This document shows, piece after piece, positions 2,303 through 30,600 of a DNA stretch of 32,357 nt. The DNA comes from Candidatus Omnitrophica bacterium CG11_big_fil_rev_8_21_14_0_20_41_12 (GTDB taxonomy: Bacteria; Omnitrophota; Gorgyraeia; Gygaellales; Profunditerraquicolaceae), in the NCBI GenBank assembly GCA_002796135.1, contig PCWB01000057.1, forward strand, positions 1 to 32,357, given 5' to 3'. Both the position numbers and the translations under genes were made by a program. The notes under the pieces were generated by a model, which did no database searches, was not told the DNA's origin, and worked only from the letters and a program-made list of their open reading frames with translations. The first letter of the stretch is position 1. The number at the start of each line of letters is the position of its first letter.

Positions 2303-3214
2303 TTACAGAGCAAAAATGGTTTTTAAGTTACCACCCAAGATATTTTGCTTATCATCTTGGGATATATCTAAATCATTGACGGCTTTGATGCCGGCGCTAA
2401 CATCCTGCTTTGCCGGCCAATCGCTTCCCCATAAAATATGCTTTGGCCCCATTAAATCCAGGCTCAAAAGAAAATTTGCTTTCGTGGTATCGCCGCTGGT
2501 ATCGACATAAATATTCTTAAAATAATCCGACGGTAATCCCTGCAGGTCTTTGACAAAGTTCATTCCCCGCAGCATCTGATAAGTTGTATCAAACCTCTGT
2601 TTCAGATAGCAGATTGCCCCGCCGAAATGGGCAAAAATAAATTTTACCTTAGAATACTGTCTCAAAATATCCGACATCAAAAGTTTACCAATCGAGATTG
2701 TCGAATCAAATACATACTCTACAACCGGGGTAAGTAAAGGATCTTTGACGCGCTCAAAGCCTATGGGGTTAACAATCTGTGAATGCACAAAAATCGGGAT
2801 ATTCTTATCTTGTGCCTCTTTATATATAGGTAAGAACATCTTGTCATCAAGGTAAACTCCGTTATAACTTGAGGCCAGAGAGATCGCTTTAAAACCTAAT
2901 TCACCGGTTGCCCGCTTTAATTCTTCCGACATATCAATACTGTTATCTAATGGCAGAATCGCCGCGCCGATAAATCTATTAGGATAGGTTTTTAAAATTT
3001 GCCCGACATTATCATTGTAAAGATGGGTAACCTGGCTGATACTGCCTAATTTCAGGTGTGCGTCTGTGGTCGGATAGCTTAAAACTGCCGCATCAATACC
3101 TGCCCCGTCCATAATTTTAAGCTGAGCCTCAATATCCCCCCAGCCCTTATGAAAAAAATGGGCATTAGAAATTATCTCAAGCGGCAGCCAATGGCTATGT
3201 GCGTCAATCAACAT
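2303..3214 (-). CDS. Amidohydrolase-2 family metal-dependent hydrolase/decarboxylase
   Basis: TIM-barrel enzyme of 303 residues in the amidohydrolase-2 (PF04909) family, which includes ACMSD, gamma-resorcylate decarboxylase and 6-methylsalicylate decarboxylase. Visible metal-ligand motifs are IDAHSHW (His6, His8), IFVHSQ (His144), FIFAHFGG (His196) and ILWGSDWP (Asp265). Family members either hydrolyse lactone-like or amide bonds or remove a carboxyl group from an aromatic ring using one divalent metal ion. In this operon, next to a ketosynthase pair and cyclases, decarboxylation of an aromatic polyketide acid is an attractive inference, but hydrolysis is possible. It is the last gene of the operon; its ATG overlaps the preceding stop by 1 bp (TAATG). 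Confidence 0.88.
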   Translation of the reverse strand: MLIDAHSHWLPLEIISNAHFFHKGWGDIEAQLKIMDGAGIDAAVLSYPTTDAHLKLGSISQVTHLYNDNVGQILKTYPNRFIGAAILPLDNSIDMSEELKRATGELGFKAISLASSYNGVYLDDKMFLPIYKEAQDKNIPIFVHSQIVNPIGFERVKDPLLTPVVEYVFDSTISIGKLLMSDILRQYSKVKFIFAHFGGAICYLKQRFDTTYQMLRGMNFVKDLQGLPSDYFKNIYVDTSGDTTKANFLLSLDLMGPKHILWGSDWPAKQDVSAGIKAVNDLDISQDDKQNILGGNLKTIFAL

Positions 3215-3627
3215 TAATGCTCCGTATTCTTTAAGATACGCTCAGTCATTTCTTTCTCATAGAGGGATTTAATCTCTTCTAAACCTCTTTTACCTAATTC
3301 TTTGGCAATAACTTTTTCTACGGCATCCAATTTTATCTCTGAAAAAATAAAATCCGGATTAATCTTTTTATGCTGATCTCTGAATTCCGAACAGGCCTTT
3401 TCTTTGTTTTCAATATATTTCTGAAAGTCATCAATGTGCCTCTGGAGAGCTTCTTTCTCATGCGAAAGATAAGAACCTAAGAACTCCTTTTCCATCTCCA
3501 TTAAGATATCTTTATCGATATCTACCTGAGTAAACTTGCGCTCGTATTTATCGAAAATTTCCTTCGCCGACTTATAGAGCCAGATAAAATAACGTTTCTT
3601 TAGATTCTTAACATCTTGATTATTCAT
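3214..3627 (-). CDS. Small charged helical protein, unknown function
   Basis: Protein of 137 residues, rich in Lys and Glu and predicted by eye to be almost entirely helical with coiled-coil stretches around residues 57-85 and 100-133. It has no signal peptide, membrane helix or recognisable catalytic motif. The N-terminal region is basic and contains aromatic residues (RYFIWLYKSAKEIF). It is embedded in the polyketide-like operon: 11 nt after the SDR gene and overlapping the amidohydrolase start by 1 bp, which argues that it is translated and that its product works with the cluster. I do not recognise a family; a docking or scaffold role would be speculation. Confidence 0.7.
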   Translation of the reverse strand: MNNQDVKNLKKRYFIWLYKSAKEIFDKYERKFTQVDIDKDILMEMEKEFLGSYLSHEKEALQRHIDDFQKYIENKEKACSEFRDQHKKINPDFIFSEIKLDAVEKVIAKELGKRGLEEIKSLYEKEMTERILKNTEH

Positions 3628-3638
3628 AGCTCTTCCTC

Positions 3639-4412
3639 CTATTTCCCGGGATGCTGCTGCTTAAACGGGATTACCGGAGCAGTCCAGGGTGTTTGTTGAT
3701 TAATTACGGAAATCTCTAGAGGGCACACGTTTGCCGGCACAGTCAGAGCAAAACGCACGGCATCTTCGATTGCCTGCGTGCTCATTAAACGCGACGTATC
3801 GCTGGTGACATCTTTAAGTTTTCCGGTTAAATCAGTATCGGTAACTCCGGGCAAGATCGAGGTTACTTTAATCCCGTGGTCGCGCAACTCCCAGAAAAGA
3901 CCTTTAGAAAAAGCCCGCAAACCGACTTTAAGTGAGCTGTAAACAATGAAATTTCTCGGAACCGGATCAACTAGGGTAGAGCCGGAAACAATATTGATAA
4001 TCGCCCCGTACTTCTGCTTAATCATATCGTTGATCACTAGGCGGATTAGCCGTACATACCCCAGATAATTTGTATGCGCTAATTTTTCAAAATCCTCGAT
4101 TGGCTGCTCTTGGAATGGATACTGTGAAGAAACTCCGGCACAATTAATCAGGATATCGGCCTTAGTAAATTTTTCTTTGGCCTTATTTACCAGGTTCTCC
4201 AAATCTGCTAATTTTGTGACATCGCAAGGCACCGCCAAAACTTCAACTTTAAATTTAGCAGCAATTTCATCCGCGGTTTCCTTTAAAAGCCCTTCCCCGC
4301 GGGCAGCCAAAACTAAATTTATACCTAGGCTTGCTGCAGTAGAAGCCATAGCTTTGCCAATGCCACGGCTGGCTCCGGTAACAATTGCAACTTTTCCTTT
4401 TAAATCTGTCAT
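3639..4412 (-). CDS. Short-chain dehydrogenase/reductase (ketoreductase-like)
   Basis: Classical SDR of 257 residues that uses NAD(P)H to reduce a carbonyl or oxidise an alcohol. The Rossmann motif TGASRGIG is at residues 12-19, an NCAG variant of the NNAG motif at 90-93, the active-site Ser in IVSGST (about 143-145), and the YxxxK pair as Tyr158 and Lys162. The basic residues after the first glycine motif (AARGE) suggest NADPH preference, as in FabG-type reductases. In a KS-alpha/KS-beta/ACP operon the natural reading is the polyketide ketoreductase. The C-terminus is longer and Pro-rich (TPWTAPVIPF) compared with FabG. The ATG overlaps the MFS stop by 4 bp. Confidence 0.9.
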   Translation of the reverse strand: MTDLKGKVAIVTGASRGIGKAMASTAASLGINLVLAARGEGLLKETADEIAAKFKVEVLAVPCDVTKLADLENLVNKAKEKFTKADILINCAGVSSQYPFQEQPIEDFEKLAHTNYLGYVRLIRLVINDMIKQKYGAIINIVSGSTLVDPVPRNFIVYSSLKVGLRAFSKGLFWELRDHGIKVTSILPGVTDTDLTGKLKDVTSDTSRLMSTQAIEDAVRFALTVPANVCPLEISVINQQTPWTAPVIPFKQQHPGK

Positions 4413-5536
4413 TTGCTACCTCCTAATTTAAAGATTCTATTTGAAAATAACAATAATAAAAGCGCGCTGCCGAAAATTATAAAACCTAGACTAAAACTCT
4501 TATGCATAATCATACCGCTTAAACTTACTCCGAGTCCGCCTGCGATAAAGCGCACCCCGCTATTTAAACTTGCAGCTTCATTTAAAAATTCAGCCGGTAA
4601 ATCCGTGAGCATTGTCGCCAGCCCCACATGATTAAAAGTCCAACCTAAACCCCAGATAATCATGATTAAACCAAGCAAGACCAGGGGCAATTTTACCAAT
4701 AACAGAAAAATACAGATGATCATGCCAATAATACCAAAGTTGACTACTTTTTGCCGGCTGATTTTATCAGCAAGATGACCACCCCAGAACTCCCCGAATA
4801 TCCCGCTTAAGCTGGTTAAGATAATTAACATGCTGATCGTAAACTGATTTAAGAGAAACTTTGTAGAAAAATAAACCCCTAACCACTGTTGTATAGCATG
4901 ATAAATTAAACTTATAATAAATATGTACACAAAAATCCTGATTACATTTCTATTTTTAAATGCTGCCGGGTAGCCAAAACGAAAACGCCCTAAATCCTCT
5001 TTAAAACTGGGCAAATACGCAAACATAAAAATCCAAAGTATCCCCCCAAAGATCGCAGGAATAATAAAAATTAAGCGCCAATGGATTATTCCGCTTAAAA
5101 ATAAACCCAAAAGTGATGCGATAAAGGTCCCGCCAAAAAATATCCCGAGAAAACTGCCGCGTTTACTCTGCTCAATATGCTTGCCAATGAGGATCAAGCC
5201 CAACGGGATTACGGATGCACCAAAAAACCCCATTAAAAACCTGGCAATAAAAAGTATGGTAATATTCTGCGACAAACCCGCTAAAAGATTAGCCAGTGAA
5301 AATAATAACATGCACACTAACTCTACTTTTCGGGCATCAAAAGCACGGACTATCGGACCATAAAGCAGCGCCGCCAAGCCATACGGAAGCATATACAACC
5401 AAATTATTTTACCAACCATAAATTGAGAAAGAACAAAATCAGCGGCAATTGATGGAACCAGTGCTGCACTTGCCGCAACATTAAACGACAAAACCGCGCC
5501 TTCCAAACAAAGGATGAAAAAGGTAATTTTTTTCAC
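4409..5536 (-). CDS. MFS family transporter, probable product exporter
   Basis: Membrane protein of 375 residues with about 11-12 hydrophobic helices, matching the Major Facilitator Superfamily in size and layout. The loop between helices 2 and 3 carries YGPIVRAFDARKV, a form of the MFS A motif (G-x-x-x-D-R-x-x-R/K), and the second half has a similar GGHLADKISRQKV, which gives the expected two-fold repeat. The early helix region (GAVLSFNVAASAALVPSIAADF) resembles drug/H+ antiporters of the DHA type. Position inside the biosynthetic operon, with 4-bp overlaps on both sides, suggests export of the operon's product or self-protection. Substrate is not readable from sequence. Confidence 0.88.
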   Translation of the reverse strand: MKKITFFILCLEGAVLSFNVAASAALVPSIAADFVLSQFMVGKIIWLYMLPYGLAALLYGPIVRAFDARKVELVCMLLFSLANLLAGLSQNITILFIARFLMGFFGASVIPLGLILIGKHIEQSKRGSFLGIFFGGTFIASLLGLFLSGIIHWRLIFIIPAIFGGILWIFMFAYLPSFKEDLGRFRFGYPAAFKNRNVIRIFVYIFIISLIYHAIQQWLGVYFSTKFLLNQFTISMLIILTSLSGIFGEFWGGHLADKISRQKVVNFGIIGMIICIFLLLVKLPLVLLGLIMIIWGLGWTFNHVGLATMLTDLPAEFLNEAASLNSGVRFIAGGLGVSLSGMIMHKSFSLGFIIFGSALLLLLFSNRIFKLGGSK

Positions 5537-5973
5537 TTAGAGGCTTCTTTTTCAATAATCTCTTTAAAGATCTTTAGATTGTGCTGCGAACCCTCATTAA
5601 TAAACCCTTCGATCTGCATATCGTTAAACTTAGCCTTAGGGTCCATCTGGAAATGCTGGATCCAGGTCATCTCGATTCCTTCAGTCTTAGGGGTATAGAG
5701 CCAGACAATCTTCATAAATTTAAAAGGAAATAACGGCTCCTCCCTTTGAGCATAAACAAAGTTCTTGTCTTTAAAAAGCAGCCGCCAAGATTGCCAGGAT
5801 TTATCGTCCTCATCAGTAAGGCGAAAAGTAATTCTATTGGCTTCTTGCTTAACGACCTCGGCTTTTTTGTATTCGGCGCCGAATAATTCAGTCCAGCGCG
5901 GGATATCATTAGAAATATCAAAAACCAACTCATATGGTGCATTAATGATTATCGAATTACAGGTGTGTCCCAT
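5533..5973 (-). CDS. SRPBCC (START-like) protein, aromatase/cyclase type
   Basis: Protein of 146 residues of the SRPBCC helix-grip superfamily (polyketide cyclase/dehydrase, PF10604/PF03364). Typical features are the N-terminal strand INAPYELVFDISNDIPRWTELF, which is the usual start of ligand-binding START-like domains, a central acidic/aromatic strand pair, the MTWIQHFQM strand, and a long C-terminal helix (EGSQHNLKIFKEIIEKEA). In type II polyketide clusters single-domain members of this family, such as the TcmN type, fold and cyclise the poly-beta-ketone chain. Its place between a PF04199 cyclase and the exporter gene supports such a role, but SRPBCC folds also bind lipids and other hydrophobic ligands. 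Confidence 0.82.
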   Translation of the reverse strand: MGHTCNSIIINAPYELVFDISNDIPRWTELFGAEYKKAEVVKQEANRITFRLTDEDDKSWQSWRLLFKDKNFVYAQREEPLFPFKFMKIVWLYTPKTEGIEMTWIQHFQMDPKAKFNDMQIEGFINEGSQHNLKIFKEIIEKEASK

Positions 5974-5989
5974 TTATCCTCCACTTTTA

Positions 5990-6787
5990 TTAAATAACTG
6001 CAACTACCCGGGCCCAGGCTGCCCCGGTATTCTTGATGCGTATCGGAAAACAAATGATCTTGAAACCGGAGTCCGGTAACTTTTCCAGATTCGCCAACCG
6101 CTCGATATGAATAAATTCTTTGATCCTGCCATAAAAATGCGCCGGATAAAATGTTTTGGGATCCTTGGTCTCTAAAAACTCTTTAAGCATAAACCTATAC
6201 GGACGGTCAATACCCATAGTATCTACGCCAAAAATTTTCACTCCTTGATTCAAGAGGTAATCGATTGCCGACGGATCTACTCCGGGATAATCCGAAAAAT
6301 ATTTCGGCCCCCCGTATAATTTATCTGCACCGGTTTGCAATAAAACTATGTCTAAAGGTTTTAATTGATAATTTATTTTATTTAAAGCCTGCTGGATATC
6401 TTCTGCTTTGATGACCTCATTAGGTTTTTTATGCCTAAGGTCCAGCTTTACGCCGTCCTGGTGACAATATTCTAATGGAATCTCATCGGCGGTTTTGGAG
6501 GGGCGGTTCTCAGATTTTGAGCCGTAATGAAAAGAGTAATCCAGGTGTGTGCCGATATGCACCGGAGCATGCACAATCTCTAGTGATAAGAATTCTTCAT
6601 CCGGCAGCTGCTCTTTTTTTACGATGCGCGCCCCTAAAGCATACTTTATTTTGCCTAAAAGAGTCTTGCCCATAATTACCCGGTTAAATTTATCCACCCC
6701 GGCCTTATGGGTTATGCGCTCAATATCAACCTTATGCACCTCAAAAGCCTTTTCATCAATTGGCAGGCTTAAATCGATTAATTTCAT
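5990..6787 (-). CDS. Cyclase family protein (PF04199, kynurenine-formamidase fold)
   Basis: Protein of 265 residues with the metal-binding signature H-x-G-T-H-x-D-x-x-x-H: His77, His81, Asp83 and His87 in the VHIGTHLDYSFHYG segment. PF04199 members are metal-dependent hydrolases or lyases such as bacterial kynurenine formamidase, and the family is also named putative cyclase because members occur in antibiotic biosynthesis clusters. Later motifs include VLLQTGADKLYGG and FGVDTMGIDRP, which are typical of the fold. The context (4-bp overlap with the ACP gene, then an SRPBCC gene) favours a role in ring formation or ester/amide hydrolysis on an ACP-bound intermediate. Which reaction it performs is not determined. 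Confidence 0.87.
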   Translation of the reverse strand: MKLIDLSLPIDEKAFEVHKVDIERITHKAGVDKFNRVIMGKTLLGKIKYALGARIVKKEQLPDEEFLSLEIVHAPVHIGTHLDYSFHYGSKSENRPSKTADEIPLEYCHQDGVKLDLRHKKPNEVIKAEDIQQALNKINYQLKPLDIVLLQTGADKLYGGPKYFSDYPGVDPSAIDYLLNQGVKIFGVDTMGIDRPYRFMLKEFLETKDPKTFYPAHFYGRIKEFIHIERLANLEKLPDSGFKIICFPIRIKNTGAAWARVVAVI

Positions 6788-7020
6788 TGCGCTAATTTTG
6801 ACTGGATATTATTTACAATATCGTCGATTGTCGAATTCTTGGTAATCTCCTTGGGGCTAAGCTTAACCGCAAAAGATTTTTCCAAGGCAATTACCGACTC
6901 GACCATCTCAGTAGAATCTACCCCGATGCTGTTGATCAAGGATACTTCGTCTTTTAATTCTTCAATCTTTACCTTTAATAAGTTGCTTAGAACTTCTTTT
7001 ACTTTCACCTTTATATCCAT
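6784..7020 (-). CDS. Acyl carrier protein
   Basis: Acidic helical protein of 78 residues, the standard ACP size. The phosphopantetheine attachment site is GVDSTEMVE with Ser36 after the conserved Asp35; this replaces the common DSL by DST. Helix 2 (EMVESVIALEKSF) and the C-terminal helix (TIDDIVNNIQSKL) follow the family pattern. It should carry the growing chain as a thioester in the cytoplasm after modification by a phosphopantetheinyl transferase, which is not encoded here. Its gene follows a 97-nt gap that contains the hairpin at 7049-7115, and overlaps the next gene by 4 bp. It is probably dedicated to the KS pair of this operon rather than to general fatty acid synthesis. Confidence 0.92.
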   Translation of the reverse strand: MDIKVKVKEVLSNLLKVKIEELKDEVSLINSIGVDSTEMVESVIALEKSFAVKLSPKEITKNSTIDDIVNNIQSKLAQ

Positions 7021-7048
7021 CGTTTCTCCTCCACACTAATAATACTTA

Positions 7049-7115
7049 TTTGCGGGTGGCACTGGGTGCTTTGCGCCAGATTTGGCGAGAAGCGCCCAGT
7101 GACAGGACCCGCAAA
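7049..7115. repeat. 67-bp near-perfect hairpin with TTTGCGGGT ends
   Basis: The arms TTTGCGGGT (7049-7057) and ACCCGCAAA (7107-7115) are perfect inverses, and the inner arms CACTGGGTGCTTTGCGCCA and TGGCGAGAAGCGCCCAGTG pair with three mismatches around a 4-nt loop. It begins 2 nt after the radical SAM stop codon. The transcript would form a long GC-rich stem that could protect the upstream message, attenuate transcription or reduce expression of the downstream genes. There is no U-run directly after it, so it is not a textbook intrinsic terminator. The outer 9 bp match those of the 2129-2299 element. Confidence 0.8.
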
Positions 7116-7117
7116 AA

Positions 7118-8578
7118 TTATATCTGCACTTCGCCTTTAGTTGCAGCTGCTTCCCACTTACCGACTCCGGCCATAACATCCTGAAAGCAAAGCTTAGCTA
7201 ACGGATCAAAATTACTTTCCATAATCCTATTGATTCTACCGGGCTTAGAGAAAAATTCACGCATACACCATGAACCTAAGCGGCCGAGGTCTTCTGTAGA
7301 CAGATGATCCGTAGGAATTACCGGATGAAGAAAATCCCATTGGGAAAAATCTACCTTTTTAGGATCAATCCAGTTTTTCTTTAAAGCAATCCTCCACATC
7401 GGAGAGTTCGGGGCAGGGGTAACATAGCCTACCCACAAAATATCCGGATCAACCAGGTCGGTAAACTCAAAACGCTGTTTGATGATCTCTTCGGTATCAT
7501 AATCAAAACCCATCATGATATCGGCAACAATGGCGATATCATTCCTGCGAAACATAGCTATAGTTTGTTTGATCTGATTAATGGTAATTCCTTTGGCGAT
7601 TTTTTTAAGTTCTGACTGGGTGGTAACCTCAATGCCAAAAACACCCATAATCAAACCGTTCTCCTTCATCATGGGTAAAATTGATTCGCAATTAACCCAA
7701 TCCGTGGCCCGGCCTAAAGAAACCCACTTGATCGGATTATTGGATGCCTTCTTAAGCTCACAGAACTTACGCACCCTTTCCGGATCGACATTAAAATTAT
7801 CATCCTGAATAACCACAACCTTAACTCCGTATTTATTATGTAAGAGATTCAGCTCTTCCATAACTCTTTCCGGAGATTTAGCGCGCCATTTTAAAAAATC
7901 CGAAGGCGAACGCGGATCAAACTGATCCCATTCATAACAGAATGTGCAGGCTGAAGGACAACCGCGCGAAGTAACCATATCTACGAACGGCTTCCAATAG
8001 GTATGGCCGACATATTTATCCATCGGAAATAGATCATAAGCCGGCAAAGGAAGCTTGTCTAAATCTGTCATCAGCGGTTTATGCGGGCCCATGACAATCT
8101 GACCATCAATACGGCTAGTTACCCCGCCTACATCTTTAAGCGGCTTATTTTTATCGATTGCCTCAATTAAATCTCCGAAAGATTCTTCTTCGCCCATCAC
8201 CACAAAATCAACTTCCGGAATTTCTTCTAATGTCGGCACAGGCATTGCTGAATACCATAGCCCACCGAGAATTATTTTTGTTCTCGGCAGCGCTTTTTTA
8301 ATACCAATAGCCGCATCTTTAAAATGCTTTAAAACTCCGTATCCGCCGTAACCATGCAATTGCTCACCCATAACCACAATATCAGGGGCTTTAGTCTTAA
8401 CCTGTTCAATCAATTGCTCCATAGGTATCTGATCGGCTTTGCCGTCGATGACCGCAACATCCGCATACCCTCTTTCCCGCACATATGCAGCCCAATGCGC
8501 ATAAAGCTGATTGGGGGACCGATGTGTTCCGTGCGTTGCCCACGCCCCGACTTTTGGCATCACAAACAAGATTTTCAT
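7118..8578 (-). CDS. B12-binding-domain radical SAM enzyme (BchE-like class)
   Basis: Protein of 486 residues with an N-terminal Rossmann-like cobalamin-binding-type domain (residues 1 to about 165, including IVVMGEQLHGYGG and VVMGEEESF) followed by a radical SAM barrel. The iron-sulfur cluster motif C-x3-C-x2-C is Cys207, Cys211 and Cys214 in SRGCPSACTFCYEW. The layout is that of class B/BchE-type enzymes that carry out C-methylation, cyclisation or oxidative chemistry at unactivated carbons. The classic D-x-H-x-x-G cobalamin motif is not present, as in many members of this group. It sits between KS-beta and ACP in the operon, so tailoring of the polyketide-like product is the likely role. 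Exact reaction unknown. Confidence 0.9.
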   Translation of the reverse strand: MKILFVMPKVGAWATHGTHRSPNQLYAHWAAYVRERGYADVAVIDGKADQIPMEQLIEQVKTKAPDIVVMGEQLHGYGGYGVLKHFKDAAIGIKKALPRTKIILGGLWYSAMPVPTLEEIPEVDFVVMGEEESFGDLIEAIDKNKPLKDVGGVTSRIDGQIVMGPHKPLMTDLDKLPLPAYDLFPMDKYVGHTYWKPFVDMVTSRGCPSACTFCYEWDQFDPRSPSDFLKWRAKSPERVMEELNLLHNKYGVKVVVIQDDNFNVDPERVRKFCELKKASNNPIKWVSLGRATDWVNCESILPMMKENGLIMGVFGIEVTTQSELKKIAKGITINQIKQTIAMFRRNDIAIVADIMMGFDYDTEEIIKQRFEFTDLVDPDILWVGYVTPAPNSPMWRIALKKNWIDPKKVDFSQWDFLHPVIPTDHLSTEDLGRLGSWCMREFFSKPGRINRIMESNFDPLAKLCFQDVMAGVGKWEAAATKGEVQI

Positions 8579-8610: not shown

Positions 8611-8690
8611 GTTTCCCGATTAGCTGCGAAACAGTTTCCAAGCTAAAGGGGAAACTGTTTCCCGATTGGGTCGGAAACTGTTTCGCTCTC
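8611..8690. repeat. Tandem GTTTCCCGATT...GAAAC(A/T)GTTTC repeats
   Basis: Two related units of about 30 bp start with GTTTCCCGATT at 8611 and 8657 and end with an 11-bp dyad GAAAC(A/T)GTTTC. Three such dyads occur at 8628-8638, 8651-8661 and 8674-8684, the middle one inside the larger near-palindrome GGGAAACTGTTTCCC. A third copy of the unit is at 15434-15468. Read on the minus strand the array starts directly after the KS-beta TAG stop (8690-8692). The stems are too tight for an RNA hairpin in each 11-mer alone, so they may be DNA-protein recognition sites or degraded mobile repeats. Confidence 0.7.
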
Positions 8691-9919
8691 TAAAGTTTCT
8701 CAACCACTAAAACCGAATTAATCCCTCCTCTACCGCGGGAAATGATTAATGACTTATTCACTTTATATTCTTTAGATTCTCTAGCAACATAGTTTAAATT
8801 ATTTAAAGCAGGTTTTTCCAAATTTATTGTCGGCGTAACTAAGCCGTGCTCCATAGTTAAAAGAGCAATAATCATATCCAGAACACCACTTGCCCCGAGT
8901 AAATTTCCAAACATGGATTTAGGGCAGCTCAACGGAATATTTTTTAAATTATCTCCGAAGACCGATTTCAAAGCCTTAATTTCAGAATCATCCCAAAGTT
9001 CAACCGCCAAACCATCTAAGCTGATATAGTCGATCTCTTCGGGATTTGCTTTTGCATCAGCTAGTGCAATTTTGATTGCCCGTGCCAATTCTTTACCGTC
9101 GCTAGCACAATTAATTCTATCCACTCCATCACAACTAGTGCCGTAGCCGCTAATTATTCCTAAGATATTGGCTCCTCTTTTTTTGGCGCGCTCAATATTT
9201 TCCATAACCACAATCCCTGCGCCTTCTCCGATGACAAAACCACTTCTTCCTTGATCAAAAGGCCGATAGGCTGCAGCCGGATTCGCATTATTGTTTGAAA
9301 GCGCCCCATAGGTATTACAACATAATAAGGCATATGGAGTAACCGGAGCTTCCATGCCGCCGGCTAAAATCATATTTAATTTATTTTTAGCTAAAACTTT
9401 CCTGGCATATCCTAAAGCCATGGAAGAGCTGGCCCGGTCACTGACAATAGTTTTGCTAAATCCTTTTATTCCGTAATATATGGAGACCTGGCCCTGGGGA
9501 GCTGCCGGAAACCAAGCAGAGGCCATGTAAGGAGAAACTCCTTCGCGTCCTTCCAGATATAAATCCCTTAATTCGGTTTCAGCATAAAGCCATCCACCAA
9601 TAGCATTGCCCAAAAAAATCCCCACTAAACTCGGGTCTTCATTTTTAATGTCGATCCCAGCATCCTGCAAAGCCAGCTCTGAGGACACCAGAGCCATATG
9701 CGAAAAGGCATCGATTTTTTTTAAAAGGCGTTCAGAGATATGGCTATATTTTTCCAAGTCATCGATTTGTCCGGCGATATGTGAAGGATATAAAGAAGCA
9801 TCGAAACGCGTAATCTCCTTAATAAAGGAACGGCCGCTTTTAAGGTTTGCCCAAAACTGCCGCTTTCCGATCCCCGAAGGGCTGACTACACCGATTCCTG
9901 TAATTGCAATCTTTTCCAT
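8690..9919 (-). CDS. KS-beta / chain-length-factor-like ketosynthase without catalytic residues
   Basis: Protein of 409 residues with the full beta-ketoacyl-ACP synthase II fold: N-terminal ITGIGVVSPSG, the GEGAGIVVMEN segment and C-terminal glycine-rich GRGGINS. The catalytic triad is gone. The nucleophile region reads IVSDRASSSMALGYAR (158-173), one residue shorter than in active KS and with no Cys, exactly as in chain length factors of type II PKS, where VVSEQAGG is typical. The first catalytic His is replaced by Asp302 (SLDGLA) and the second by Asn339 (MFGNLLGAS), while Lys334 is kept. Encoded 12 nt after a KS-alpha gene, it should form the heterodimer that sets chain length. A decayed duplicate is unlikely because the frame is intact. 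Confidence 0.9.
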   Translation of the reverse strand: MEKIAITGIGVVSPSGIGKRQFWANLKSGRSFIKEITRFDASLYPSHIAGQIDDLEKYSHISERLLKKIDAFSHMALVSSELALQDAGIDIKNEDPSLVGIFLGNAIGGWLYAETELRDLYLEGREGVSPYMASAWFPAAPQGQVSIYYGIKGFSKTIVSDRASSSMALGYARKVLAKNKLNMILAGGMEAPVTPYALLCCNTYGALSNNNANPAAAYRPFDQGRSGFVIGEGAGIVVMENIERAKKRGANILGIISGYGTSCDGVDRINCASDGKELARAIKIALADAKANPEEIDYISLDGLAVELWDDSEIKALKSVFGDNLKNIPLSCPKSMFGNLLGASGVLDMIIALLTMEHGLVTPTINLEKPALNNLNYVARESKEYKVNKSLIISRGRGGINSVLVVEKL

Positions 9920-9931
9920 ATTTAAAGTGAG

Positions 9932-11194
9932 CTACTCCTTAAATCGTTTTAAAATCAATGATGAATGTATCCCCGAAAAACCGCTTGAGGTCTTTAAAAT
10001 CGTATTAACTTTTTTCTGGATTGCCTGATTCGGAATATAATATAAGTCGCACTGCGGGTCCTTCTCCTCCTGATTTATCGTCGGAGGAAGGATATTTTTC
10101 TCAAAGATCATCGCGGTGATGGTTAGCTCGATAGCATTGGCCGCAGCCAGCGGATGCCCGATCATGGATTTAAACGAACTGATCGGCAACTTATAGGCAT
10201 ACTCGGAAAAAATCGCTTTATAGGCGTTGCTTTCAAAAATATCATTCATCCGCGTACTTGAGCCGTGGGCATTAATGTAATCAATCTCACCGGGTTTAAC
10301 CCCGGCATCTTGCAAAGCCAAACTAATACAGGTCTCCATTGCCCGGCCGTCAGAAGGCAAATCCGTCATATGAAAGGCATTGCAACTTGTACCAAATCCT
10401 AAAACTTCGCAATAGATCGGCGCATTACGTTTTAAAGCATGGTTTAATTCTTCTAAAACCAAGATTCCTGCTCCTTCTCCAAGCACAAAACCATCGCGCT
10501 TGTTATCAAAAGGCCGTGATGCTTTTTGCGGCTGGCTATTATGCACAGATAGAACATTAACTACATCAAATGCTCCGAAAGTAATCGGAGTAAGCGGAGC
10601 TTCGGCTGCGCCGCAAATCATAATATCCTGCTCTCCATCCTGGATGCTTTCTAAGCCAAAACCCAGCGAATCGGTACCGGCAGTACATCCGGTAGAAATT
10701 GTATTACAGATTCCTTTTAAGCCGTAACGCGCACTGATCTCTATCGACGGAGTATTGAACATCGCCGCATCATACAAATCAGGACGCACTAAAGCCGGAT
10801 TAATCGGTTGTTTGCCGTCATCAGTAACTAAAGCAAATTCTTCTTCCATATATTTGGTTCCGCAGATCGCATTGGCTAAACACACACCGATGCGCTGGGG
10901 ATCTTCTTTAGAAAAATCTAATTTACTGTCCTCAATTGCCATTTTTCCTGCGGCTACGCCAAACTGCACATAGCGGTCCATGCGCATTGCCTCCTGATGA
11001 TTTAATCCTAATTTAAAAGGATCAAAATCTCTGACTTCCGAAGCAATTTTAGTATTAAAAACCGACACATCAAAACTATCCACCAGGCGCACTCCGGATC
11101 TGCCGCTTGAGAAACCCTCCCAGGCATTAATTTTACCGATGCCGTTTGGTGAAATCACACCAATCCCGGTGATTACTACTCTGCGCTTAGCCAT
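9932..11194 (-). CDS. KS-alpha, beta-ketoacyl-ACP synthase (FabF type, catalytic)
   Basis: Condensing enzyme of 420 residues in the FabF/type II PKS KS-alpha family. It extends an ACP-bound acyl chain by decarboxylative Claisen condensation with malonyl-ACP. All active-site residues are present: Cys170 in STGCTAGTDS, His310 in INAHGSSTRMND, Lys342 and His347 in SSFKSMIGHPLAAA. GEGAGILVLEE and the C-terminal SSGFSGIHSS loop are also standard. A Shine-Dalgarno (GGAGAG) lies about 10 nt before the ATG. Followed 12 nt later by a paralog that lacks the catalytic residues, it fits the KS-alpha/KS-beta arrangement of type II PKS, aryl polyene and related systems rather than a housekeeping FabF, which usually stands next to acpP alone. 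Confidence 0.94.
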   Translation of the reverse strand: MAKRRVVITGIGVISPNGIGKINAWEGFSSGRSGVRLVDSFDVSVFNTKIASEVRDFDPFKLGLNHQEAMRMDRYVQFGVAAGKMAIEDSKLDFSKEDPQRIGVCLANAICGTKYMEEEFALVTDDGKQPINPALVRPDLYDAAMFNTPSIEISARYGLKGICNTISTGCTAGTDSLGFGLESIQDGEQDIMICGAAEAPLTPITFGAFDVVNVLSVHNSQPQKASRPFDNKRDGFVLGEGAGILVLEELNHALKRNAPIYCEVLGFGTSCNAFHMTDLPSDGRAMETCISLALQDAGVKPGEIDYINAHGSSTRMNDIFESNAYKAIFSEYAYKLPISSFKSMIGHPLAAANAIELTITAMIFEKNILPPTINQEEKDPQCDLYYIPNQAIQKKVNTILKTSSGFSGIHSSLILKRFKE

Positions 11195-11197
11195 GAC

Positions 11198-11794
11198 TTA
11201 TTTTCTCTCCTGAATTCTTGTCACTTTAAAAATAATATTTCCTCCGTCCGGACAGGTTACGGTATCAATCGAATCCAGATCAGACATAAAAAAGAACCTG
11301 GCCCCGAAATTTAAAGCAAACAAAGCCGGAAAAGCAGTATGAAACGCCGCGCCGCAGAAACCCGGAATACATTTTAACCCTTGAGTCTCCCATTTATCTC
11401 CGACTTTATAACCAAATGTACACTTTCCTTTTGCCTGCACAACCTCGATAATCATCTTCTTGGGATTAGGCCCTTTATGCTCCGGATCGCGCGGAATTTC
11501 CTCAACCTTTCCCTGTTTATCTAAAATCTCAGCTTTAAATTCGAGCTTGCCTCCGTCGGGACAAGTCACCAGTAAAGAGCGCTGATTATCGCGGAATCCA
11601 AACTTTGCGCCGAAACTCAAAGCATAGATAACCGGAAAAAGTGCATGGGCTAAGCCCAAACAAAAATGCTTGGGGGCATGGGTGAAATCCTCCAGAATAA
11701 TCTCATCGCCGATTTTATAACCGTGATAACAAACTCCGAGAACCTGCGTAACGATAAGTTTTAGACGAGGAAAAGGAGAATTAATTTCTTCCAT
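11198..11794 (-). CDS. Tandem TIGR04076-like protein, unknown function
   Basis: Protein of 198 residues formed by two copies of a ~90-residue domain. Shared landmarks in both halves are C-(Y/T)-x-G-Y-K-(I/V)-G-D, then F-C-x-x-(A/L)-x-H near a small helix, ALxFGA(K/R)F, and VTCPDGG close to the end. The pattern matches the TIGR04076 family of small Cys-containing proteins of unknown function, which are usually one domain of about 90 residues. The repeated Cys residues (two to three per half) could bind metal or form a redox pair; this is inference. It lies 3 nt upstream of KS-alpha and 2 nt after the dehydrogenase gene, so it belongs to the biosynthetic operon. Confidence 0.75.
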   Translation of the reverse strand: MEEINSPFPRLKLIVTQVLGVCYHGYKIGDEIILEDFTHAPKHFCLGLAHALFPVIYALSFGAKFGFRDNQRSLLVTCPDGGKLEFKAEILDKQGKVEEIPRDPEHKGPNPKKMIIEVVQAKGKCTFGYKVGDKWETQGLKCIPGFCGAAFHTAFPALFALNFGARFFFMSDLDSIDTVTCPDGGNIIFKVTRIQERK

Positions 11795-11796
11795 TT

Positions 11797-12801
11797 TTAA
11801 ATAAACTCCTTAGTTTTTTGAATTAAATCTTCTTTGCTGAAAAATCTGCCGCTCTTCTCTACTTCATGCACCATCTCCACCAAAACTTTATTTAAAGGAG
11901 CCGACAGATTGTTCTCTTCTGCCAGACGCACAAACTCGCCGTTAATATACTCAACTTCGGATAATTTACCACGCATAATACTCTGTAATATTGAGCCATA
12001 CAGCGGTTCCTTGCTTAAGCTACTCATCCGCTGTGAAAAAACCTGAGCGGCCAGTTCAACCGGCATGGAAGTAAGTTTAGTAATATTCTCTGCCGGAAAT
12101 CCGGGAAGAGAAACCAGCTGTAGCCCAACAGAATCAATAATCCCAAAAGCTTCTTTCCAGATGGCAATACTAATCCGGCTAATCCCCTGGTCGCTAAAAA
12201 CCTCCTGCATGCTTTTGCCAATAATTGCCGGCAGGCAATTGTTGGCGTTAACAAAGATCTTTAAATATTTTGCCCCTTTAATATCTTCACAGATTACCGT
12301 AGGAAATGCCTTATTTAAGACCAGGCTTAAAGAAAGCACGGATTCACTGAGTTTATGATTAAAAAAATTACCCAATACCCAACTACCTTCAAAATTATGC
12401 ACAACCTTACCCGGCTCAAGGTTGGTCGCACCAAACATAACAATACTAGAAATAATTTTCTCTTTATTCAGATATTTAACCGCTAAATTGTCCGCCTGAA
12501 CACCGTTTTGCACAATCAATAACAAAGAACTCTGCAATAAATGAGAATTATTTTGTAAAGCACAATTTATATCCTGAGTCTTAGTAGCTAAAATCGCCAG
12601 CTCCGGAATATAGTTTAAAGTATCAGATGCGCTAATATGAACTAAAAAATTACCTCTTACTCCGGAAACGGAAATACCTTTTTCTTTAATTGCCTTAACC
12701 GTACTGCTGTGGCCGACTAAAGTTACCTCTTCACCCTTCTCTTTCAGGTAAGCGGCAACTAAACAGCCTATGGCCCCGGCACCGATAACGGCAATGCGCA
12801 T
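11797..12801 (-). CDS. Ketopantoate reductase family (ApbA/PanE-like) dehydrogenase
   Basis: NAD(P)-dependent dehydrogenase of 334 residues with the N-terminal Rossmann motif IAVIGAGAIGCLVAAYL (G-x-G-x-x-G at 7-12) and the C-terminal helical domain of 2-dehydropantoate 2-reductases. Other hallmarks are LATKTQD in place of the usual VK-x-x-D/Q segment, VQNGV, and a YLKIFVNANNCLPAI segment where PanE has K-x-x-x-N; the Lys is kept (AKYLKIFVN). True PanE reduces ketopantoate for CoA synthesis. In this operon a paralog acting on a beta-keto or alpha-keto intermediate is more likely, though supply of the pantetheine arm cannot be excluded. Start 12801 directly abuts the previous stop at 12802. Confidence 0.85.
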   Translation of the reverse strand: MRIAVIGAGAIGCLVAAYLKEKGEEVTLVGHSSTVKAIKEKGISVSGVRGNFLVHISASDTLNYIPELAILATKTQDINCALQNNSHLLQSSLLLIVQNGVQADNLAVKYLNKEKIISSIVMFGATNLEPGKVVHNFEGSWVLGNFFNHKLSESVLSLSLVLNKAFPTVICEDIKGAKYLKIFVNANNCLPAIIGKSMQEVFSDQGISRISIAIWKEAFGIIDSVGLQLVSLPGFPAENITKLTSMPVELAAQVFSQRMSSLSKEPLYGSILQSIMRGKLSEVEYINGEFVRLAEENNLSAPLNKVLVEMVHEVEKSGRFFSKEDLIQKTKEFI

Positions 12802-13071
12802 TTAACTTTTATCCTCCCTGGGAAACCCATATTTCTTGTAATCAAAACCATTCTGTCCAAGGAGACGAACCATCATACTATAGAATGGAGAAGGCACATC
12901 GGTGAAAAAAGCAGCAATCACATCCTGATCCTCAACCTGGTTGCAATTGCGGCCTGCGGCAATCTTTTCTGCCTGCTGAGTGACCACGGATTCGGTAATC
13001 CTACGGTGGAATACCGGTATCTTAGAAATTAAAATTTTGAATTTGTTTTGCGTCTGAGCTTCCCAGATCAT
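12802..13071 (-). CDS. Small PCP_red-like helical protein, first gene of the operon
   Basis: Protein of 89 residues. The segment KIPVFHRRITESVVTQQAEK followed by DQDVIAAFF resembles the PCP_red domain (PF08369), a ~45-residue helical domain found at the C-terminus of protochlorophyllide reductase subunits and as small stand-alone proteins of unknown function. The match is by pattern (I-P-x-F-x-R then E-x-x-A then D-V-x-x-A) and is not certain. The C-terminal part (SPFYSMMVRLL) is hydrophobic. It is the promoter-proximal gene: a GAGG ribosome site lies 7 nt before its ATG and the promoter/operator at 13129-13182 precedes it. Its stop abuts the start of the ketopantoate-reductase-like gene. Confidence 0.65.
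   Translation of the reverse strand: MIWEAQTQNKFKILISKIPVFHRRITESVVTQQAEKIAAGRNCNQVEDQDVIAAFFTDVPSPFYSMMVRLLGQNGFDYKKYGFPREDKS

Positions 13072-20218: not shown

Positions 20219-20219
<1 letters not shown>
18603..20219 (-). CDS. gspE: Assembly ATPase GspE/PilB with MshEN-like N-terminus
   Basis: Hexameric secretion ATPase of 538 residues. Walker A is GPTGSGKT (323-330), the Asp box is around EDPVEYA (351-357), Walker B is DIMMIGEIRD (387-396), the His box is LVFSTLHTNDS, and the zinc site uses Cys456, Cys459, Cys464 and Cys467. The N-terminus shows two 24-residue motifs separated by 5 residues (5-28 and 34-57) of the pattern x-L-G-x2-L-x3-G-x6-L-x3-L-x2-Q, the MshEN layout that binds cyclic di-GMP in some ATPases; the leading Arg of that motif is Leu or Met here, so binding is uncertain. 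The start overlaps the atpD stop by 1 bp (TAATG). Confidence 0.94.
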
Positions 20220-22457
<2,238 letters not shown>

Positions 22458-22463
22458 CTAAAT

Positions 22464-23924
22464 TTAGTCCGGTAGATTAGCTCTAAAAAATTCTTTAATC
22501 GCTTTATCCAGCTGCGACTTAATCTCTTCGGTTAATTCTCCTTGCTTATTTAAATCATCAATCAAACTTTGATTATATTTTTCCAAATGATTAAAAAATT
22601 TATTTTTAAATATCTTTACCTGGCTCATATCCAATGCCTCTAAAATCTTTTTCTGAAAGGCATAAAAAAGAGAGATCTCTTCGGCCTGAGAAACCGGAAA
22701 ATTATTTTCCTGGGTTAGAATCTCATAAAGCACCCTGCCGCGCTGAAGTTGGGCGGTTGCCTCCGGAGAAAGCTTGGTGCGCAGGCGCGTTAAGCGCAGT
22801 AAAGAGCGGAACTGTACATATTCATAACGCAACCCCGCGCTTAATTCTTTAATTGCCGGACATTGCACCTTGCTGCCGATACGCGAAACCGATAATTCTA
22901 AATCAATCGCCGGCTTAAACCCCTCCTGGAAAAGACTGGTATTTAAATAAATCTGCCCGTCGGTCATGGAAACAATATTGGAACAGATATAGCCGGTAAT
23001 ATCTCCCTGCAGGGTTTCGGCTAAAGGTAAAAATGTCATTGACCCGCCGCCAAATTTAGCTTTTAAGCGGCCTGCCCGCTCCATAAGCTGGGAATGCAAA
23101 AAGAAAATATCTCCGGGGTATGCTTCGCGGCCGGGTGCCCGTTCCAATAGTAGTGACATCTGCCGGTATACCCAACTATGTTTGGTCAGATCATCAAAAA
23201 TTACTAAAACATTCTTACCTTTATACATAAAATATTCGCCTAAAGAAGCTGCAGTATAAGGGCACAGGTACTGCTCGGCAGTAGAGGAGCCGGCAGAAGC
23301 GGAAACTGCCAAGGTATAATCCATTAAACCTCTTTGTTTTAGCTGTTGAATGATTTTATTAAAAGCAGCGTTATTGCCTCCGATCCAACAATAAATACAG
23401 ATGACATCTTTGCCTTTTTGGTTGATAATCGTATCCAGGCAAACACTGCTTTTACCGATCTGCCGGTCGCCGACAACTAATTCACGTTGCCCTTTGCCTA
23501 AAGGAATCAAAAGGTCAATGATCTTAATCCCCGTATGCAGCGACTGATTGATCGGCTCGCGCTCCATGACCCCGGCTGCTTCCCGGAATGCCGGATTAAT
23601 TCCTGCCGGCTCGATCTCTGGCCCCCCGTCCAATGGCCGGCCTAAGGCATCAACCACACGGCCGATAAAATTCTCACCTACCGGGACATTTAATAATTCG
23701 CCTTTACTATAAACCGGATCCCCGACTCTGACCCCCTGCTCATCGCCAAAAACAATTCCATAGGCTCCACTGGGATTAAATTCAATAATCATCCCTTTAT
23801 AGCCATTAGCCAGCTCAATAACCTCGCCGAAAAAACAGTTAGGAAGGCCGCTAATCTTGATGATCCCCTGCCTTACCTCTTCGACACGGCCGACCTCTTT
23901 AATATCTAAAGCTTGGATTTGCAT
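22464..23924 (-). CDS. atpA: F-type ATPase subunit alpha, short N-terminus
   Basis: Regulatory nucleotide-binding subunit of F1, 486 residues. P-loop is GDRQIGKSS (152-160, standard GDRQTGKTA); VIFDDLTKHSWVYRQMSLLLERAPGR and YPGDIFFLHSQLMERA are strongly conserved, and the Arg finger lies in SVSRIGSKVQ. The protein starts at EVGRVEEVRQGIIKISGL, so the ~20-25 residue N-terminal helix that binds subunit delta in standard enzymes is largely missing, in keeping with the absence of a separate delta gene. The residues IGGNNAAF replace IGQK-x-S-T-V. Encoded 1 nt after the b/delta gene. Confidence 0.95.
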   Translation of the reverse strand: MQIQALDIKEVGRVEEVRQGIIKISGLPNCFFGEVIELANGYKGMIIEFNPSGAYGIVFGDEQGVRVGDPVYSKGELLNVPVGENFIGRVVDALGRPLDGGPEIEPAGINPAFREAAGVMEREPINQSLHTGIKIIDLLIPLGKGQRELVVGDRQIGKSSVCLDTIINQKGKDVICIYCWIGGNNAAFNKIIQQLKQRGLMDYTLAVSASAGSSTAEQYLCPYTAASLGEYFMYKGKNVLVIFDDLTKHSWVYRQMSLLLERAPGREAYPGDIFFLHSQLMERAGRLKAKFGGGSMTFLPLAETLQGDITGYICSNIVSMTDGQIYLNTSLFQEGFKPAIDLELSVSRIGSKVQCPAIKELSAGLRYEYVQFRSLLRLTRLRTKLSPEATAQLQRGRVLYEILTQENNFPVSQAEEISLFYAFQKKILEALDMSQVKIFKNKFFNHLEKYNQSLIDDLNKQGELTEEIKSQLDKAIKEFFRANLPD

Positions 23925-23925
23925 A

Positions 23926-24645
23926 TTATTTTTTAAAATGGGGAAGAATTCTTTGCAGTTTATTTTTTAAAGATCCATCGATAACCAGCCCGCCGATCTC
24001 AACGATTAATCCACCGATCAGATCATTTTTCAAGCTCTCCTCAAAGATCATCTCTTTGCCGGTTTTTTCTTTTAAAACCTGTTGTAGATTTTCTTTCTGG
24101 TCTTTTCTCAATAAGTGGCTGGAGCTAACCTTAACCTTATCTGAAACTATAGTAAATTGATCTTTTGGAAGTTTGGAAATTTCTGAGATAATTTCTGAGA
24201 TGAATTCCTGTTGCAGATTTTCTTTGTCTTTTTCACTTAGAAGCTCCTCAACCAGCTTCATCGCCAAATCCAAGCTATGCGCCTCTGACTCCTTTAAATG
24301 TTTTTCCTTAGATTTTTCTACCTCGATATTGCCATCGGCAATAATTTTCTCTACCTGGCCCTTGGCTTGATCCTCCATCTCCATGCACAGCTTAACCCCC
24401 TCTTTACGCGCCTCTTCCATAATTAAACTGGCTTCATCGCGTGCTCGCTTAATCTCGGCATCTCCTTCTGCTTTGGCACGCTTAAGCTCGTCGGTAAGCT
24501 GTTGTTCCTTAACTAAATTTTCTTCATGCAGGCTATTTAATCTGGCTACAGCAGCATTTAAATGATAGGAAAAAAGGAAACGCAAAAAAAGAACTACCCC
24601 GGTAAAAACAATTGCCATGATTATGATTAACAGGCTTAAAGGCAT
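23926..24645 (-). CDS. atpF: F-type ATPase subunit b with delta-like C-terminus
   Basis: Peripheral-stalk protein of 239 residues, longer than a normal b subunit (about 160). It begins with one membrane helix (LSLLIIIMAIVFTGVVLFL) and continues as a long charged coiled coil to about residue 140. The C-terminal part ends with DLIGGLIVEIGGLVIDGSLK, which is the signature end of subunit delta (L-I-G-G-x-x-x-x-I-G-x-x-V-x-D-G-S). It therefore appears to be a b-delta fusion that alone forms the stalk, an arrangement also seen in N-type and some other atypical F-ATPases. No separate delta gene is present. Confidence 0.9.
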   Translation of the reverse strand: MPLSLLIIIMAIVFTGVVLFLRFLFSYHLNAAVARLNSLHEENLVKEQQLTDELKRAKAEGDAEIKRARDEASLIMEEARKEGVKLCMEMEDQAKGQVEKIIADGNIEVEKSKEKHLKESEAHSLDLAMKLVEELLSEKDKENLQQEFISEIISEISKLPKDQFTIVSDKVKVSSSHLLRKDQKENLQQVLKEKTGKEMIFEESLKNDLIGGLIVEIGGLVIDGSLKNKLQRILPHFKK

Positions 24646-27643: not shown

Positions 27644-30600
27644 TTATTTAAACTCAAACCAGGACTGCACCACCGGTTTGTTCGCCACGTTTTGCATCAT
27701 CTTCTGGTTAATCTCCATGGTCGCCTTTAACTCCTGGGCCTTATTCTTAAGATAGGTGATGTCATCCTTCTTATCCTTGGAGACTTTATAAAGCTTCTCT
27801 AAGCTCACTCCCTGCGTGCCACCGATCTTCTTGATCTGGCCACTTAAGGCAGTTAATTGATTATATACCGATTCTAAATCATTAACAACACCTTTTGTCT
27901 TGCTAACCTCTCCGGATATTCCTTGGCCCAAGTTACCCAGAGCCTTTTCAATCAGGCCAAATTGTGAATTCAAAGTATCAACGATATCCCCAAGACCGGT
28001 TAAGCTCGAAGTCGTCCCTAAGATCCCCGAGACCTGCCCGGAAATCTCTTCCAGATCGTGACGAACTACGCTGATTGCTAAAGCATCGGCAGTACCTTGG
28101 GTGGATTCAGAGCAAACAATAGTAAAATCTCCAATGCCCCAATTGTTTTCAAATTTCACATTGTATTCATAAACTCCGGTTGCCCCGATTTCTTTCATTG
28201 TTTTACTGGCAACTTTTAAAACATTTTTAGGATCATATATGCTGATTACCGGAGTCAAACCAGTTGTCGTGCGGTAAGATACAGTCATAGAAGATCCGAT
28301 TTTTACTGAGGTTTCGCGATTAAGAATACCTGATTGTACTGAAGGCTTAATCTCCTTAACCACTGCTTCCTGCACTGCAGTTATCTGGGCAGGTAATGTA
28401 GTGCCGGTAGCAGTTAAAATTTGACCGGTTTCGGCTTTTACCGCTGCTACTGCTGCCTTAACCTCTTCAGCTTTAGTCTCTACTGCTGTCTTTACGTCAC
28501 CGACGGCGCTTTTAATATCGCTTGTGGCAACCCCTAACTGCGCGCTTAACTCTTCTTTAGCCGCCTGTTGCTCTTTTGCCGCGGTTACATCAATATTACC
28601 GCCGGAAGTATATATCCCCTCCCTGTAAAAAATTTGCGCCTTTACGAAAGAAACTTTCCCTGTTGTTAATCCGGTTTTGTCCCAGTTAAAAGAGAATACC
28701 CCCTGACCATCCGGAGTAGTGGAAACCAACTCCTTAACCAACGTATCCCCATCATAAACTTGTAGAACAGCTTTTTTAAGATCCGCCCGCTCTACGTCGG
28801 TAAGGCCGACCATCTTGCCTCTACGTTCCAACCAAGAGGAAACCCGTAAACTATCCGTTGCAGCAGAATAAGAAGTACTTAACAGAACGTGCCATTCAAT
28901 TTGCGCCGAGATAGCCGACTCCAGATAAACCGTAACTGTCTTATCCGCGTTAGCAACCCAAACAGTAGAACGTTCGGGATACTCGGTCCCTTTCGACCAG
29001 AAAGTAGTATAGCTACCGTAAGGATACTTATGAATAGTCCCGGTAGGAGAATCTACTTCTGTTGCACTCCATAACGCATCCTTAACGCTAAGCGTACTTA
29101 TATCGGTATAAGTATCATAATCAAGAATTCGCCAGCTGATTGTATAATAATCGATCTTAAAATCTACTTCGCCATAGATTGTAGAATCATTGGAATCAGT
29201 TATACGCAGGCGGCATGAGCTATTTACCAGATCAGGCAAAACCCAAGAATAGCTTCCGGTGTTATCTACAGGCCCGGCGACTGAATTCCACGACGTACCA
29301 TTATTCAAAGAATAATCTAAATTTACTTTAGCAATAGTACCCTTGGTTGACCACTGAATGGTTTGCGGTGATTTTGCTCCCCAGGTATCTGTCAATTTAG
29401 GCGCAGTAAAAGTAAATCCGCCTCTTAACCTAAAGGCTCCGGAAACAACAGGATCAACATTCGGATTCTCGCTGGTTAGTTTTAGTTTAATATTCGGACT
29501 GCTCAAAGCATCTAAAGGAATTGACCAATTATAGCTTCCTGCGGCGCTATCAATATTATTGGCGACCTGTTTTTCAGTTACAAAATTATCCGCGGAGTAG
29601 GTTAACGTTAATTTTCCGACTGACAATCCTTTTGTGCTCCATTTAACAAGCATTGTCTCCCCTAAAACATAAGTATCTCCTGCCTTAGGCGAATCCAGAG
29701 CAATCGTTGGTTTTGGTATAATATTAAAAGCATTAGATATAGCAAGTGTATTCTGCCTTTCCCCGTCCATAATCTTAAATTTCACTGAAGTTGACGGGTC
29801 ATTCGACACTAACCAGAAATATGCGTCGGTATTTGCCACACCGCTAGTAATCGGTGCGCTCCAACTGGCGCCATTATCAGTAGAATAGTAAAGGATTAAG
29901 TTGTTACTTACATTGCCGGTAGTTTTCCATTTAACAGGCGCAGAATCTCCGGCTGCCCAATATTCGCCTCCGGCAGGCGAGGTAATCTCAATTACGGGCA
30001 GTTTAATATTAAATACATTATCTGAAATATCGGAGGTTGCGGTATTTGTGTTATCAATAATTCTGACTCTGACATTATTAAAAGAGCTCTGGAATAAACC
30101 AAAAATGTCTTTATCCGGAATAGTCCAAAGGCAAATATGGCTGGTCGGATCAAAAGGCGCGTTAGGAGTAATGCCAAACCAATTTGTGCCGTTAACAGTA
30201 TATTCAAATTTTAAGTCATTGCTGATTTTACCTCCGTTATCAGTCCAGGTAATCGACTGTTGAGTGCCCATAATCCAGTTTTCCGCTCCGTTAGGGGCGG
30301 TAAGTGTAATCTCCGGAACAGGCAAAACCGTAAAATTTGCAGATGACTTCCCCATGCTTATCGGCCTGCCGGTATCAGTGATCCTTACCCTATAGGTCGC
30401 AGATAAAGGATAGTTCACGCCGGTTTGAAACAAAGGATATTCGGTCAGCGTATTGCTAATTGTAGCAATTGTTACGGCGCTGGATGCAAAATTATCTAAA
30501 GAATACTCTAATTTTAAATCTCCGACGAGCTTTCCTTCAGTAGTCCAACGAATCATTTCACTGGCATCATTTAATGTTACTAATTCTCCTCCCTTGGGAT

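Follow-up and report, generated by a model that had tools for sequence, protein, structure and literature searches.

The gene at 8690–9919 (minus strand) of a 32,357-nt stretch of DNA from a Candidatus Omnitrophica bacterium, hereafter the window, encodes a ketosynthase (KS)-like protein of 409 residues that lacks the catalytic Cys and His residues of its intact neighbour. Is this protein the chain-length-factor (CLF)-type subunit, KS-beta, of a type II polyketide synthase (PKS), an independent lineage with its own priming mechanism, or a decaying copy of the gene beside it? We find it quite probable that 8690–9919 encodes the KS-beta subunit of a complete type II PKS conserved in Omnitrophota. 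Judged by its sequence, the protein is predicted to be catalytically dead in its own site, has an intact KS-alpha and an acyl carrier protein (ACP) as partners, and belongs to the KS-beta clade.

Replaced active-site residues in KS-beta

KS-beta is encoded by one unbroken open reading frame (ORF); the plus strand across 8690–9919 is full of stops, and the coding frame is that of the minus strand. The AlphaFold2 model of the monomer (pLDDT 94.4, from an alignment that included FabF rows) has a complete KS fold with a helix from residue 161. Foldseek matches this model to FabF (TM-score 0.96), the actinorhodin (act) KS (0.95), and the act CLF (0.93), and because FabF ranks above the act CLF, the monomer fold cannot tell a CLF from FabF. 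The best NCBIfam model is FabF (TIGR03150) at 370 bits, below its cut-off of 494. The protein departs from FabF, the fatty acid KAS II, both in this score and in having neither the Cys nor the His. A role in ordinary fatty acid synthesis is unlikely, given the failed FabF cut-off and another site in the genome (57 contigs, 1.22 Mb) where a separate FabF adjoins an ACP. A search of Rfam gave no match.

We used MAFFT to align 75 KS-beta and 74 KS-alpha sequences from Omnitrophota with reference sequences. Arg162 (9434–9436), Asp302 (9014–9016), Lys334 (8918–8920), and Asn339 (8903–8905), all encoded on the minus strand, occupy the columns of the KS-alpha Cys, His, Lys, and His, respectively, so that within 8903–8920 the Lys is retained and the second His replaced. 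All four assignments agree with the original prediction. That prediction also described a one-residue deletion in the nucleophile loop, shared with actinobacterial CLFs, which the alignment does not bear out: from G[IL]KG to the next LG, KS-alpha, KS-beta, and actinobacterial CLFs are equal in length and free of gaps, and Arg162 aligns with both the KS-alpha Cys and the CLF Gln. The apparent deletion arose from anchoring a short motif by eye. The vestigial loop itself, residues 158–173 (IVSDRASSSMALGYAR; 9401–9448, minus strand), runs into the helix predicted from residue 161.

These replacements are fixed. Asp161, Ala163, Asp302, Lys334, and Asn339 are invariant in all 75 Omnitrophota KS-beta orthologues, and position 162 is always basic (Arg in 70, Lys in 5), so that the nucleophile Cys and the catalytic His residues are lost in 75/75; the KS-alpha proteins keep Cys, His, Lys, and His without exception (74/74). 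Pairwise dN/dS between KS-beta and orthologues of 85–91% identity is about 0.01–0.07 where dS can be estimated, equal to the KS-alpha value, and is trusted to an order of magnitude only since dS is near or past saturation. KS-beta is on these grounds a functional protein under strong purifying selection, in which the dead active site is itself maintained, and its fixed replacements reflect neither chance nor decay.

A type II polyketide gene cluster

Only 12 nt separate KS-beta from KS-alpha (9932–11194), which has an intact C170-H310-K342-H347 set and whose closest solved structures are AntD and the act KS; the two genes are adjacent in 70 of 75 loci. All genes of the cluster lie on the minus strand. 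The ACP (6784–7020; 78 residues, with the motif GVDSTEMVE) scores above the PF00550 cut-off, and its gene overlaps the next start codon (ATGA). It was missed when the sequence was first read; the impression given by the ORF list that the cluster lacks an ACP is an artefact of its 80-residue length threshold. The minimal type II PKS set of KS-alpha, KS-beta, and ACP is complete within this one cluster.

Between KS-beta and ACP lies a gene for a B12-binding radical SAM enzyme related to BchE (7118–8578), which fails the BchE equivalog cut-off (205 bits versus 481), although BchE is still its nearest equivalog. Downstream of ACP are a PF04199 'putative cyclase' with the metal-binding motif HIGTHLD (5990–6787), an SRPBCC polyketide cyclase/aromatase-like protein (5533–5973), an MFS exporter (4409–5536), a ketoreductase-like SDR (3639–4412), a conserved 137-residue protein with no assigned function (3214–3627), and an Amidohydro_2 protein that is a possible decarboxylase (2303–3214). 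Upstream of KS-alpha are a TIGR04076 family protein with two copies of the domain (11198–11794), a ketopantoate-reductase-like oxidoreductase (KPR; 11797–12801), and, as the outermost upstream gene, an 89-residue DUF2621-like protein that scores below the Pfam cut-off (12802–13071).

This content recurs in the 39 loci that extend across the region. All 39 have ACP, the PF04199 cyclase, and the SRPBCC protein, and KS-alpha, the radical SAM enzyme, and the SDR are each present in 38/39. KPR, the DUF2621-like protein, and the amidohydrolase follow (37/39 each), then TIGR04076 (35/39), the MFS protein (27/39), and the 137-residue protein (24/39). The flanking genes are not conserved among the same 39 loci (GspE in 3, ATP synthase alpha in 0, CrcB in 7). 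The position of the radical SAM gene varies: in the family of the window it separates KS-beta from ACP, and elsewhere it lies at one end or the other of the cluster. In the sole spanning locus without KS-alpha (L123, genome G071), that gene lies about half a megabase away and both ketosynthases are kept (C1:990777–991976 and C1:436386–437639).

A strong hairpin lies between the radical SAM gene and ACP at 7049–7115 on the minus strand (−41.9 kcal/mol and z −4.7 for 7021–7117). Several relatives have another strong hairpin at this junction, and in locus L035 its arms, GGGGACGGTTCT...AGAACCGTCCCC, look like a mobile palindromic repeat. Genome G077 carries, besides KS-alpha and KS-beta, a second and divergent neighbouring ketosynthase pair (C1:1175980–1179107), 35–36% identical to the KS-alpha of the window.

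From its gene content, the PKS is probably aromatic and O2-independent. KS-beta would form a heterodimer with KS-alpha, line the chain tunnel across the interface, and set chain length, and KS-alpha would carry out priming and all condensations on ACP. The PF04199 and SRPBCC proteins, which are the cyclase/aromatase mark of aromatic type II PKSs and whose activity is assigned by family only, would then fold the poly-beta-ketone; the SDR would reduce the polyketide, the amidohydrolase may decarboxylate it, the radical SAM enzyme would add an O2-independent modification, and the MFS protein would export the product. No oxygenase gene is recognised in the cluster. KS-alpha/KS-beta-like pairs also occur in polyene and cispentacin-type pathways (PMC10698177), and the product could accordingly be non-aromatic, as a polyene, a ladderane-like lipid, or the work of a KS-CYF-type ring former; we consider this improbable, because no dehydratase gene is recognised in the cluster and the SDR is single, the two cyclase-type proteins are present at every spanning locus, and the KSs that KS-alpha most resembles, AntD and act KS, are aromatic.

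Phylogenetic position and the basic residue at the Cys column

In a maximum-likelihood tree of 76 KSs, the KS-beta and CLF sequences all fall in a single clade (100/100) and the KS-alphas all in a second (98/91), a split that is stable when the active-site columns are removed. The Omnitrophota KS-beta proteins branch within the KS-beta/CLF clade and are separate from both KS-alpha and FabF (100/100), and their description as KS-beta or CLF-like was correct. Three KS-beta groups are each recovered, namely Omnitrophota, Actinobacteria, and Bacillota with Azospirillum and AntE (84/86 only for the last), with a branching order that is not resolved. When AntE, AntD, and the act CLF are added, the Omnitrophota KS-alpha proteins are sister to AntD and the Azospirillum KS-alpha (95/87). 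AntE enters the tree as a 252-residue fragment taken from an alignment; it groups with Azospirillum on long branches, which leaves its exact placement unsure. The CLF of the E. coli aryl polyene (APE) system (240 residues) was left out of the trees as too short and divergent, and two APE KSs have very long branches.

One ancient KS duplication is also the published view (PMC6638757), and the mostly non-actinobacterial CLF clade of a 2023 catalogue agrees with our tree (PMC10132072). An 'independent or deeply branching' lineage had been proposed for this KS-beta. The second half of that proposal stands, in that Omnitrophota form one of the deep KS-beta branches. Independent origin is ruled out by the single 100/100 clade, with the active-site columns in or out, and taken together with the rejection of a local duplication this makes the lineage deep rather than independent.

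We then compared the active-site columns across the KS-beta groups. All 11 actinobacterial CLFs examined have Asp in place of the first His, keep the Lys, and have Arg at their second His; the Asp and the Lys in Omnitrophota are the ordinary actinobacterial CLF state and nothing unusual. The actinobacterial CLFs also share with Omnitrophota the tandem KS-alpha/KS-beta arrangement with ACP (as in the act KS/CLF, PDB 1TQY), the clade, and the AWF motif. They differ in having Gln at the Cys column, the mark of actinobacterial-type CLFs, where Omnitrophota have Arg162; Gln is found in most of those examined, with His in L139 and Gly in L148. They differ further at the second His (Arg versus Asn) and at gate position 109 (Phe or Thr versus Trp).

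Outside Actinobacteria, the Cys column holds Arg or Lys in the Omnitrophota, Bacillota, and Azospirillum KS-betas and Asp in Photorhabdus AntE, so that other non-actinobacterial KS-betas have the Arg/Lys162 variant as well. At the second-His column, every Omnitrophota sequence has Asn, Actinobacteria have Arg, Azospirillum has His, and Bacillota have either His or Ser; among the KS-beta groups aligned, an invariant Asn339 is found in Omnitrophota only. The CLF-type AWF motif is present in most of the set comprising AntE, Bacillota, Azospirillum (as SWF), and actinobacterial CLFs, and is not a feature of KS-alpha.

A basic residue at 162 is paired with Asp or Glu at 302 in every Omnitrophota, Bacillota, and Azospirillum KS-beta examined. 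Cys and His are in contact in working KSs. Because of this contact, the simplest reading of the pattern is an ion pair in the old site: Arg162 and Asp302 are probably ion-paired and occupy the place of the former Cys and His. We propose from such a pair that the former site is structural and not a malonyl decarboxylase. Trp110 (9590–9592, minus strand) is present in all 75 Omnitrophota orthologues, and the same gate column is Trp in Bacillota, Azospirillum, and AntE. It aligns with Phe109 of the act CLF, which we take to be the gatekeeper, and a conserved Trp at the gate is a weak hint that the chain does not exceed an octaketide.

The nearest characterised system is the Photorhabdus anthraquinone minimal PKS, AntD/AntE/AntF (PDB 6SMO/6SMP; PMC6638757), of which AntD is the closest to the Omnitrophota KS-alpha by sequence. 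AntE and the Omnitrophota KS-beta have GGW, AWFPAA.QGQ, and SKT in common, and both are without Cys and Gln. AntE differs in its Asp at the Cys position and its divergent C-terminal third (PMC6638757), whereas the Omnitrophota protein is full length and carries Arg162, Asp302, and Asn339. Bacillota carry plasmid-borne clusters (loci L140, on a P. megaterium plasmid, and L143–L145) in Priestia megaterium, Apilactobacillus kunkeei, Lactobacillus gasseri, and Staphylococcus saccharolyticus. These resemble the Omnitrophota cluster in having KS-alpha, KS-beta, ACP, a PF04199 cyclase, an SRPBCC protein, and Trp at the gate, and their KS-betas carry an SDR/ADR/SDK motif that places Arg or Lys in the Cys position. 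They differ in having Glu for Asp302 and His or Ser for Asn339, and in carrying an AMP-ligase, a methyltransferase, and a cupin in place of the B12-radical-SAM enzyme, KPR, TIGR04076, and the amidohydrolase. The S. saccharolyticus cluster adjoins a salicylate synthase gene.

The original prediction also held that the replaced residues point to a different gating or priming mechanism, which these comparisons do not support: Arg/Lys recurs in Bacillota and Azospirillum, and AntE, an experimentally working CLF, has Asp at the Cys position (PMC6638757). Since AntE works with this Asp, the loss of Gln alone does not imply new priming, and KS-alpha-driven priming is the conservative mechanism. In its fullest form, the alternative is an independently evolved KS-beta that primes or gates through a buried Arg/Lys, for example by binding or decarboxylating malonyl-ACP in place of the CLF Gln. 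We give this little credence. Its appeal lies in the strict conservation of Arg/Lys162 in Omnitrophota and its recurrence elsewhere, together with the missing Gln and the Asn339 peculiar to Omnitrophota; it has to contend with the single KS-beta clade and with AntE and the annotated actinobacterial CLFs with His or Gly, from which we conclude that the residue in the Cys position can change with no new mechanism involved. The open-access papers searched gave no report of Arg at the KS-beta Cys position.

That KS-beta arose recently as a copy of the neighbouring KS-alpha and has since decayed, as the tandem position, the same fold, and 34% identity between the two might suggest, can be dismissed almost entirely, because a forced clade of Omnitrophota KS-alpha and KS-beta is rejected under the model used (p-AU 3e-11, lnL 129 worse), dN/dS is far down at the values given above, and the active-site replacements are fixed throughout the lineage.

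Distribution in Omnitrophota and significance

The preferred reading, a KS-beta subunit of a conserved type II PKS, extends well beyond the window. Among 384 sampled Omnitrophota genomes, about 138 have a KS-beta orthologue (counted by hand from matches of at least 54% identity, a few of them partial), including 17/18 genomes of the genus to which the window belongs; loci with 88–91% identity in KS-beta belong to Candidatus Omnitrophota. A wider scan took one genome per species and used peptide patterns from the window protein, which distant homologues would escape. Its matches above 70% identity are Omnitrophota among the named genomes, save one probably mislabelled metagenome-assembled genome (MAG), and its best matches outside Omnitrophota reach 37–38%. 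The exception (L057), titled Planctomycetales, has the cluster with a KS-beta of 82% identity and is probably an Omnitrophota MAG.

The 2023 catalogue already lists KS-CLF pairs in Candidatus Omnitrophica, and the passages considered here are silent on the make-up of the cluster, the active-site residues, and conservation across the phylum (PMC10132072). The content of the Omnitrophota cluster type is described nowhere in the literature that we searched. In much of this uncultured phylum, KS-alpha/KS-beta type II polyketide synthesis is in these terms conserved and not sporadically acquired. A natural set of CLFs with Arg/Lys for Gln opens to direct test the old question of whether chain initiation requires the CLF Gln, and a cluster that combines a BchE-like B12 radical SAM enzyme with no recognised oxygenase may give a new aromatic scaffold. 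More speculatively, and as a doubtful extension, a phylum-wide, vertically kept, O2-independent pathway in these small-genome bacteria could supply a near-core aromatic metabolite (a pigment, redox carrier, or signal), with B12-radical-SAM chemistry replacing oxygenases and KS-beta stabilised by a buried Arg/Lys-Asp pair that might also shape priming or chain length.

Two other regions of the window deserve mention. At 20219–24645, F-type ATPase genes (a fused b-delta protein, alpha, gamma, and beta) adjoin type II secretion/type IV pilus genes; no epsilon gene is found there among the listed ORFs, and beta scores for a V/A-type C-terminal domain. At 27644–32263, a protein of 1539 residues contains many diverged Ig-like repeats ('...ITWTTKG...') and matches Kre9/KNH-like domains.
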